Below, piece by piece: positions 14,772 to 17,700 of a DNA stretch of 64,000 bases. Every line of letters starts with the position of its first letter. Within the stretch, counting starts at the first letter, position 1. The DNA comes from Spirochaetaceae bacterium bin103. Its GTDB lineage: Bacteria; Spirochaetota; Spirochaetia; SZUA-6; Bin103. The position numbers and the translations under genes were made by a program. The stretch covers positions 1-64,000 of the forward strand of contig MPNH01000011.1 of assembly GCA_002238925.1 (NCBI GenBank), in the 5' to 3' direction. Under the pieces are notes generated by a model that saw nothing but the letters and a program-made list of their open reading frames with translations, did no database searches and was not told the DNA's origin.

Positions 14772-14957
14772 TGTCGCTTTGCTGTGGCGTCCGTCAAGCG
14801 TTGCGCGTCTGCACCGACGCACGCACGCCGTGCCAGTCGCGTCGCCGGGTGCGTACCATAGTGGAAGCGGGCAATATAGTCAATCCCGACAGTGTTCGCG
14901 TATGATGGCTGCTGTCAGCCCGGCCAAACCGACAACGGAGTCGTCATCGGAGGACAG

Positions 14958-15308
14958 ATGTACTATTACCCGAACCGTGCGCACAAGAGGGAGACTACCG
15001 AAGCCGGGCCTCCAGGATGGCGTCCGGACAAGGAGCCTTGCCCGGACATGACGCCGCGAGAGCGGGAGACGCTGTTGCAGGATTCTATCGCAATAGATCC
15101 TGGTTCGCCGACATCGCAACGTTTCGCGGTTCGGCGCCGCTCAGGGTTGGAGTTCTTCACAGCTCGAATGACCAGGGCGGTGAATGGCAACGTCGAGTTT
15201 CACGGTTATCCGACGCCGCACGTACCGGGACGCGTACTGAGACAGTTTCGGGATCAGGGCCTGATTACCAAAGCGGAGTATGGCAGCTTGGTGAAGCGGC
15301 TCGGCTGA
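14958..15308 (+). CDS. Unknown 116-residue protein, first gene of a two-gene cassette
   Basis: Not recognised with certainty. Soluble, no signal peptide or membrane segment. The start ATG has GGAGG 4 bases upstream. The N-terminus is Tyr/Arg/Pro-rich (MYYYPNRAHKR, then EAGPPGW and a CPD motif near residue 32). A middle section rich in Arg and aromatic residues follows, with a conserved-looking HGYPTPHVP near the C-terminus and a helical tail. Its stop is only 2 bases before the next start, implying obligate co-translation with the IrrE-like protein. Small proteins coupled to IrrE/ImmA-like partners are often toxins or antitoxins, but nothing in this sequence proves that. Confidence 0.7.
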   Translation: MYYYPNRAHKRETTEAGPPGWRPDKEPCPDMTPRERETLLQDSIAIDPGSPTSQRFAVRRRSGLEFFTARMTRAVNGNVEFHGYPTPHVPGRVLRQFRDQGLITKAEYGSLVKRLG

Positions 15309-15310
15309 CG

Positions 15311-16798
15311 ATGTTGATCGGCAACCGCAACGACTTGGCTTTCGAGGTCCATCCGCTCACGCCCACTTGGGAGCGTCGCTATCTCCCGGAACGGTCGGCG
15401 TGGGCGCAACTCGGAATCTGGGTGAGCGGTACGAACCTGTGTGAGAACATTCTGGATGGATCGGACTCCGTTCGATCGGGCATCAATGTTCCGCTGGCTC
15501 CGCTGGTGGATTGGCTGGTGCGATCCTGGACATTCATCGAGTTCGAGGAGGGGCCCGGCTATTTCCCGCTGCGTCGCTCGTCGCGCGAGACCCTCCGTGC
15601 CTGGGGCGATACTGCGCCGCGGGCCGAATTCACGGAAGATCAGTGGTTCGACGCCCGCGAGCTATGGTGGACGCGACACTTCCTGTCCGCTGGAGCGGAC
15701 GGCTCCCGGTTGCCGAATGTCTCCCTTGTCCGTGCCGGCGATCAGTTGGTCATCGAATGGGGGCGGGCCGAGTTTCCCGGCGGCCAGGCTCCGCGGTTCA
15801 TCTCGGAAGACGGCCAGGCAGTTATCGGGTGGCTCGCCGGCGAGGAGGCTCTGGCCGAGTTCGCGACGTTCGTAGCCGAATGGCTCCGGACGGAGGATCT
15901 GGCGGACGTCTATCCGTGGGTGCGCCTGAGCGACCCGCTTCGCGAGAAGGAATCCCGCTTCGACGAGAAACTGCACGCCTACATCGGGATCGACCCGAAT
16001 GTGTTGTACGAATGGAAGGATACGAACACGGACTCCGGCCTCCGTGAATGGCTCGGGCTCCCTGCAGACTGCGAGGATCCTGGTGGTAGCGTAATCACCC
16101 AGGTGCTGAGGGATCTGCCACCGGACGCTTCCGAATCGTTGCGTAGTCAGGTGTGGCGGTTGGATCAGGAGACCCGCAGGGGAAAGAAATTCTCCGACGA
16201 GTTGCGAACCATGGCACGCGATGCAGCCGGGAGCGGCGGTCATGCCGAGTTGTCGGGGTATCAGGCCGCCCGCGCGGTTCGGCATCATCTAGGTTTGGAT
16301 GGAAAGCCGATCGACGACGTCGACGAGCAACTCAAGGAATTCGGAGCCGAGGTCATCGAGTCTGGCGTGGAGTGCCTCCGGGAGAGGATGCTGGTTGGCT
16401 CCCGACAGGGGCATGGCGCCGCCGTCGTGCTCAACCGGACACCCCGCACCGAGACGCCGTGGGGGCGACGATTCGAGTCGGCCCGCGGTTTGGGCCACCT
16501 GCTGATGGACCCCTATCGAGAACATACGCTCGGAGCCGCTTCCAGTACCTTCTCGCAGCCTTGGGCAAGACGACGTTCGGGCGCGTTCGCGGCAGAGTTG
16601 CTTCTGCCGAGTGCAGCGCTGCTCGAAGATGCGGGACACCTCGACTCTGCTGCTCAGGGGGTGACATTCAAGCGGATCATGGAGAGGTACCGGGTCGGCG
16701 CCAGAACCGCCGCTTTTCAACTCTGGAACCAAGGGTTGCTCTCGAGCAGTCAGGTTCGCGACGAGTTAATCGATTGTTACTCCGGTGTGGGAGGATAA
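15311..16798 (+). CDS. Protein with degenerate ImmA/IrrE-like peptidase domain
   Basis: A 495-residue protein. Its C-terminal third resembles ImmA/IrrE metallopeptidases: RFESARGLGHLLMDP aligns with the zinc helix, followed by GAFAAELLLPSAAL (the usual FAAELLMP segment) and a helical tail (RYRVGARTAAFQLWNQGLL) that suits substrate-dependent sensing. The HExxH motif is broken: the expected His-Glu are Arg-Gly, leaving only the second His. Classical zinc hydrolysis is therefore unlikely and a binding or sensing role is more plausible. The N-terminal 330 residues are acidic and Trp-rich with no family I can name. The frame opens at 15017, but the start at 15311 fits its tight coupling to the small upstream gene. 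Base composition looks less GC-rich than the flanking gltB and envelope genes. Confidence 0.7.
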   Translation: MLIGNRNDLAFEVHPLTPTWERRYLPERSAWAQLGIWVSGTNLCENILDGSDSVRSGINVPLAPLVDWLVRSWTFIEFEEGPGYFPLRRSSRETLRAWGDTAPRAEFTEDQWFDARELWWTRHFLSAGADGSRLPNVSLVRAGDQLVIEWGRAEFPGGQAPRFISEDGQAVIGWLAGEEALAEFATFVAEWLRTEDLADVYPWVRLSDPLREKESRFDEKLHAYIGIDPNVLYEWKDTNTDSGLREWLGLPADCEDPGGSVITQVLRDLPPDASESLRSQVWRLDQETRRGKKFSDELRTMARDAAGSGGHAELSGYQAARAVRHHLGLDGKPIDDVDEQLKEFGAEVIESGVECLRERMLVGSRQGHGAAVVLNRTPRTETPWGRRFESARGLGHLLMDPYREHTLGAASSTFSQPWARRRSGAFAAELLLPSAALLEDAGHLDSAAQGVTFKRIMERYRVGARTAAFQLWNQGLLSSSQVRDELIDCYSGVGG

Positions 16799-17595: not shown

Positions 17596-17624
17596 CGCAA
17601 TGTGGCCGGTACGGTAGCGCATTC

Positions 17625-17700
17625 TGCCGCGGAATGCATTGTGCCGCGGAATGCATTGTGCCGCGGAATGCATTGTGCCGCGGAATGCATTGTGCCGCGG
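17625..17700. repeat. 17-bp tandem repeat with nested palindromes, 4.5 copies
   Basis: The unit TGCCGCGGAATGCATTG occurs at 17625-17641, 17642-17658, 17659-17675 and 17676-17692 without a mismatch, then as a half copy to 17700. Each unit contains two palindromes, CCGCGG and AATGCATT, set about one and a half helical turns per period. The array fills the divergent spacer between the SMUG1 and DUF1015-aminotransferase genes. The 17-base period is not a multiple of three, so it is not a coding repeat. Candidate roles are a multi-site operator, an iteron-like protein-binding array, or a slippage-expanded repeat. Confidence 0.9.

Follow-up and report, generated by a model that had tools for sequence, protein, structure and literature searches.

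A probable toxin-antitoxin or phage-defence gene pair in a spirochaete genome, joining a small protein to a degenerate M78 (ImmA/IrrE-type) partner

What is the role of two tightly coupled genes among spirochaete housekeeping genes when the larger one encodes an M78-type protein whose catalytic residues have been replaced? The pair was found in the window, by which we mean the whole 64,000-nucleotide stretch of Spirochaetaceae bacterium bin103 DNA that was analysed, and its features are presented in Table 1. The first-pass annotation had described two ORFs 2 bases apart in housekeeping surroundings. Both points hold: the small ORF precedes the large one by a 2-nt gap, exactly at the coordinates reported, and the flanking translations read as glutamate synthase (gltB) and a uracil-DNA-glycosylase (SMUG1)-like protein. 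Beside the pair there are housekeeping genes only and no defence genes.

Table 1 Features of the two-gene pair and of its upstream region in the window
Feature	Position	Strand	Assignment or basis
Small gene (116 aa)	14958..15308	+	Predicted effector/toxin, proposed free-standing counterpart of the C-terminal domain of Menshen NsnC
Large gene (495 aa)	15311..16798	+	ImmA/IrrE (M78)-type partner, predicted antitoxin/sensor, predicted to be catalytically dead
Large protein N-terminal part, residues 1-314	15311..16252	+	No known family, no HTH
Degenerate M78 (ImmA/IrrE) domain, residues 315-488	16253..16774	+	Pfam and PADLOC matches
R392-G393 replacing the catalytic His-Glu of HExxH	16484..16489	+	M78 alignment, sequence
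H396, sole zinc-site residue left	16496..16498	+	M78 alignment
R420 replacing the third zinc ligand Glu	16568..16570	+	M78 alignment
Weak promoter-like site 5' of the small gene	14877..14906	+	Consensus match only, 9/12

The ImmA/IrrE scaffold proposed earlier for the large protein was confirmed: the GHLLMD and FAAELLLP segments are present, and near the C-terminus the protein matches Pfam Peptidase_M78 (E 8.9e-6) with 26 bits, above the gathering score of 22. The PADLOC RmrA and CapP models match residues 315-488 (E 5.5e-10 for RmrA). The first ~310 residues gave no match in Pfam, PADLOC, NCBIfam or PHROGs, no HTH was found in the protein in Pfam, NCBIfam or PHROGs, and an AF2 single-chain model failed (pLDDT 37). 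To describe the active site, four key positions were aligned in 14 M78 proteins. The residues H-E-H-E occupy these positions in 11 of the 14, namely in all 11 comparison proteins (five distant pair members, an Azospirillum protein referred to as L022, and five HTH-type M78 proteins from related genomes). The window protein has R-G-H-R (R392, G393, H396 and R420), and its two orthologues, from G009 (same genus) and L002 (a gammaproteobacterial genome), both have R-A-H-R. The replacement of the catalytic His-Glu by Arg-Gly had been noticed before; the accompanying loss of the third zinc ligand, the distal Glu of the ERxAN motif, had been missed. The degeneracy applies to the window lineage, as zinc-site loss is common to all three orthologues found, but not to the family as such, in which the distant homologues all keep HExxH and the third ligand. 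Judged by its sequence, the large protein is a homologue of the Peptidase_M78 family and not a working M78 peptidase, and we propose that the active site was lost in the common ancestor of the window lineage while the scaffold was retained.

Does the small gene belong with the large one? Five distant pairs carry the same N-terminal part in the large protein, shared over about residues 1-230, together with an intact protease and a small gene directly upstream (G009:C96, G141:C2, a Thiodictyon plasmid, L021, an Agrobacterium plasmid, L023, and an IMG/VR contig, L024). The upstream genes encode proteins of 98-156 aa, with junctions of +9, +9, -4, -4 and -10 nt. Altogether, the small gene stands directly upstream in 8 of the 8 loci that share the N-terminal half of the large protein, so the survey suggested in the first-pass annotation came out in favour of a constant partner. 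Distant homologues do have an intact HExxH, which the annotation had counted as a point against itself, but the small gene is conserved and is found together with the large one. The eight loci represent at least six separate sites, including two plasmids and one IMG/VR element; the window and G009:C51 share one site, and G009:C96 and G141 may share another. The pair family has the arrangement by which type II toxin-antitoxin systems are recognised, neighbouring genes that are inherited together and occur on mobile DNA.

The pair family is rare. A small-protein profile applied to 345 genomes of the phylum recovered the window alone, plus one weak match, L026, which lies within unrelated genes and was regarded as chance, and the A7 profile census added no further pair. 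L034 and L038 are M78 proteins with neither the N-terminal part nor the small gene. Searches for the window-type pair in phages left the large protein unmatched in phage records and gave no match in IMG/VR; plasmid searches with the window proteins found no pair, while the intact paralogue used as a query did find it. The intact pairs are located near toxin-antitoxin or restriction genes: MazEF (L021) and VapC/Phd (L023) are annotated neighbours, and a PIN/Phd-like pair (L009) and an HsdS-like gene (L010) were identified by reading. At L024:475-6377, also by reading, the intact pair adjoins a cluster of Dcm-type methyltransferase, Vsr-type endonuclease and HSP90/MORC-like ATPase genes, with serine recombinase and ParB-like genes on its other side. 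Besides both pair types, G009 encodes several HTH-type M78 proteins whose active sites are intact (L008, L017 and L019).

A comparison of three of these M78 proteins bears on partner choice. The M78 parts of L022 and L021 share 40% identity (E 2e-38), yet the N-terminal part of L022 is not detectably related to that of L021, and the gene upstream of L022 encodes an unrelated 262-aa protein. The N-terminal parts of L021 and L023 are related (E 4e-7), and both loci have the small gene. Because L021 and L023 share the part and the partner and L022 has neither, the sequences suggest that the N-terminal part tracks the small partner, with L022 as the one counter-case. L022:1839-4031 itself has the appearance of a partner swap, since both the N-terminal part of the M78 protein and the upstream partner differ from those of the pair family.

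The next question concerns the identity of the small protein, in which the motifs H..K, CP, LL..S, RFAV and HGYP can be recognised. It had been described as belonging to no recognisable family, which is true only of the window copy alone; its relatives match NsnC of the anti-phage system Menshen (NsnA, NsnB, NsnC). All five intact-pair small proteins (5/5) match the C-terminal ~80 of the 263 residues of PADLOC NsnC, with best E values of 8e-8, 1.4e-8, 1.2e-4, 0.017 and 0.018; two of them match four different NsnC profiles, and no family other than NsnC was found for them among 5027 PADLOC models. The window-type small proteins have no NsnC match of their own. They can be tied to the intact type because an HMM built from the small proteins of the five intact pairs, run against a background of 1175 ORFs, gave as its best new matches L002 (8.9e-6), G009 (8.9e-4) and the window (4.8e-3), and because hhalign scored the two types at 27.9, compared with a maximum of 18.6 in 100 column shuffles. 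Over 118 genomes, the single match of the NsnC profile was the small gene of the G009 pair; over the 345 genomes of the phylum there were five matches (some probably chance), L029 among them. At L029:98-1857, an ATPase-like gene is directly followed by a gene for a 334-aa NsnC-like protein, in which the NsnC match is limited to the C-terminal part and which ends in the small-protein motif (PKHKPP...YHGYP); the N-terminal part of this protein may represent a new type of NsnC. The direct hhalign comparison of the small family with this single protein is weak (probability 22%), and the link is carried by the NsnC profiles.

On this profile evidence, we propose that the small protein corresponds to the C-terminal domain of Menshen NsnC in free-standing form. 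Unlike NsnC, it lacks the NsnC N-terminal part and is partnered with an M78 protein, and no gene of the NsnA/NsnB kinds (DUF262, ATPase) lies beside the window pair. We infer that ptuXYZ is the same kind of system as Menshen. Other assignments were discarded: a SHOCT match (E 0.0064, below the Pfam cut-off) covers 22 residues and is absent from the relatives scanned, and ribosomal L22/L17 matches in a PDB sequence search with the small family (E 0.14 or worse) were taken as chance. With regard to a possible BECR (RelE/ParE-type) toxin fold, the structural model of the small protein (pLDDT 62.7) comprises, at low confidence, a helix, three strands and two helices; the top PDB matches of a fold search with it include the toxins RnlA and BrnT, none of them significant (E 0.5 or worse).

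How does such a pair compare with characterised systems? ImmA-domain proteins were predicted in 2009 by Makarova et al. to be linked to RelE and PIN toxins (PMC2701414) and are experimentally supported antitoxins in RosmerTA (PMC10440598) and RipAB (PMC12795458), in which the toxins that they neutralise are quite unlike one another. The order of the genes is not fixed, and the toxin comes first in 58% of ImmA-type pairs (PMC10440598, PMC12795458). Like the window pair, RosmerTA and RipAB consist of two genes with the ImmA (M78) domain C-terminal in the second protein, and RipAB is likewise toxin-first. In contrast, RmrA and RipB combine an N-terminal HTH with, apparently, a protease domain, whereas the window protein has an unrelated N-terminal part, no HTH and no catalytic residues. 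The second protein is thus not of the HTH + ImmA type that characterises RosmerTA, as the RmrA match covers the M78 part only, and the small protein did not match the RmrT models of PADLOC.

The anatomy, with the partner first, the ImmA-type protein second, tight coupling and defence-type neighbours of the relatives, fits ImmA-type pairs, and for this reason we propose that the small protein is a toxin and the large one its antitoxin or sensor. The pair is probably a toxin-antitoxin or phage-defence module; the specific reading of a toxin-first, Rosmer-like module for phage defence or mobile-DNA maintenance, in which the large protein restrains a small effector, is given roughly even odds (about 0.5). 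The small protein would act as the effector, and the large protein would bind and restrain it through the partner-specific N-terminal part joined to the M78 scaffold, releasing it once infection or stress disturbs the complex. The M78 protease would have been intact in the ancestral form, and in the window lineage, with the active site lost and the scaffold kept, restraint or sensing would have to be non-proteolytic and proceed by binding. Toxicity, neutralisation, trigger and a role against phages are all predictions here. Against a toxin-antitoxin reading stand the missing HTH, in contrast to RmrA/RipB, the housekeeping-only neighbours of the window pair and the failure of the window small protein itself to match NsnC; in addition, a function as a sensor rather than an effector is conceivable for the C-terminal domain of NsnC. 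The module suggested by the first-pass annotation is therefore partly supported, by the constant presence of the small gene and by the domain shared with NsnC; the anti-protease role that it also raised is speculative.

Could the intact M78 proteins instead be proteases with a regulatory target? M78 proteases act on an HTH repressor in IrrE/DdrO and in CapP/CapH. The same holds for ImmA, which cleaves the HTH repressor ImmR (PMC2701414). On this precedent, a signal would trigger cleavage of the small protein, or of a third repressor, by the M78 protein, the small protein being a substrate or regulator rather than a toxin, and the dead window protein would merely sequester it. The M78 domain is indeed a protease scaffold, held in common with these three systems, with CapP (7t5t) and IrrE (3dte and 8slm) as its best relatives in PDB profile matches, and 5 of the 8 pairs keep all catalytic residues. 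However, the pair lacks the HTH partner of those systems, and searches of Pfam, PADLOC, NCBIfam and PHROGs found neither an HTH nor a DNA-binding signature in its small protein; the small-type domain forms part of NsnC within a defence operon, which is a better fit to an effector; and catalysis is dispensable in one lineage, where the active site is gone. We consider this explanation unlikely.

Another important issue is whether the window copy is still a mobile module, or is retained at all. Identity between the window and G009 is 79% for the large and 78% for the small protein, and between the window and L002 it is 60% and 68-70%, so the two ORFs are conserved as a pair (78-79% and 60-70%) and are not a chance arrangement. 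Conservation in the pseudo-M78 region (80% with G009, 62% with L002) equals that in the remainder of the large protein, and each gene has a dN/dS of about 0.2 (0.13-0.26 across the pairs and methods used). This value rules out a decaying pseudogene: both genes are under purifying selection, the dead domain included, which is kept and not decaying. Such selection would also suit an old defence module turned to a housekeeping or regulatory function in the genus, with neither protease nor toxicity needed. The G009 pair occupies the identical gltB / SMUG1-like site (G009:C51), and the pair has therefore been inherited there in two species of the genus; the window copy has no adjacent defence genes, and the small proteins of its lineage have diverged from the NsnC profile. 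On the other hand, the protease-dead L002 pair lies at a different site with an IS3-type transposase downstream (by reading), so the dead form itself has moved, and the GC3 of the pair genes (0.67/0.73, compared with 0.90 for gltB) suggests a foreign origin. Domestication consequently seems doubtful, more so than a protease-regulator. Reversed roles, with the large protein as the effector through a toxic N-terminal part and the small protein as its inhibitor, are improbable, because although that N-terminal part is conserved and uncharacterised and antitoxins are often encoded first (PMC10440598), ImmA-domain proteins are the antitoxins in the tested systems (RosmerTA, RipAB), and the small domain also occurs at an NsnC-like end where there is no M78 protein (L029).

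Within the preferred reading of a small toxin restrained by a large antitoxin, we tentatively suggest, at somewhat less than even odds, that the window protein is a pseudoprotease antitoxin, one of ImmA/IrrE type whose catalytic activity disappeared in a single lineage but which is still selected and travels with its toxin. If so, the M78 scaffold can neutralise or sense through binding alone, and a single effector domain moves between Menshen NsnC and a two-gene toxin-antitoxin pair in which it stands alone. The kinds of components, an M78 antitoxin and the NsnC domain, are known already; in the searchable literature, outside which most subscription papers lie, we found no description of the combination of M78 with the NsnC domain, of the absence of the HTH or of a selected loss of catalysis. 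Whether the protease activity of ImmA-type antitoxins serves neutralisation or release only was not found to be settled in the literature examined, and the question becomes directly testable with a catalytically dead form that occurs in nature, is under selection and has intact relatives.

One further observation concerns the neighbourhood of the pair. In the gap that separates the SMUG1-like gene from the gene after it, a tandem array at 17619-17700 consists of 4.8 copies of the 17-bp unit GCATTGTGCCGCGGAAT with 98% matches.
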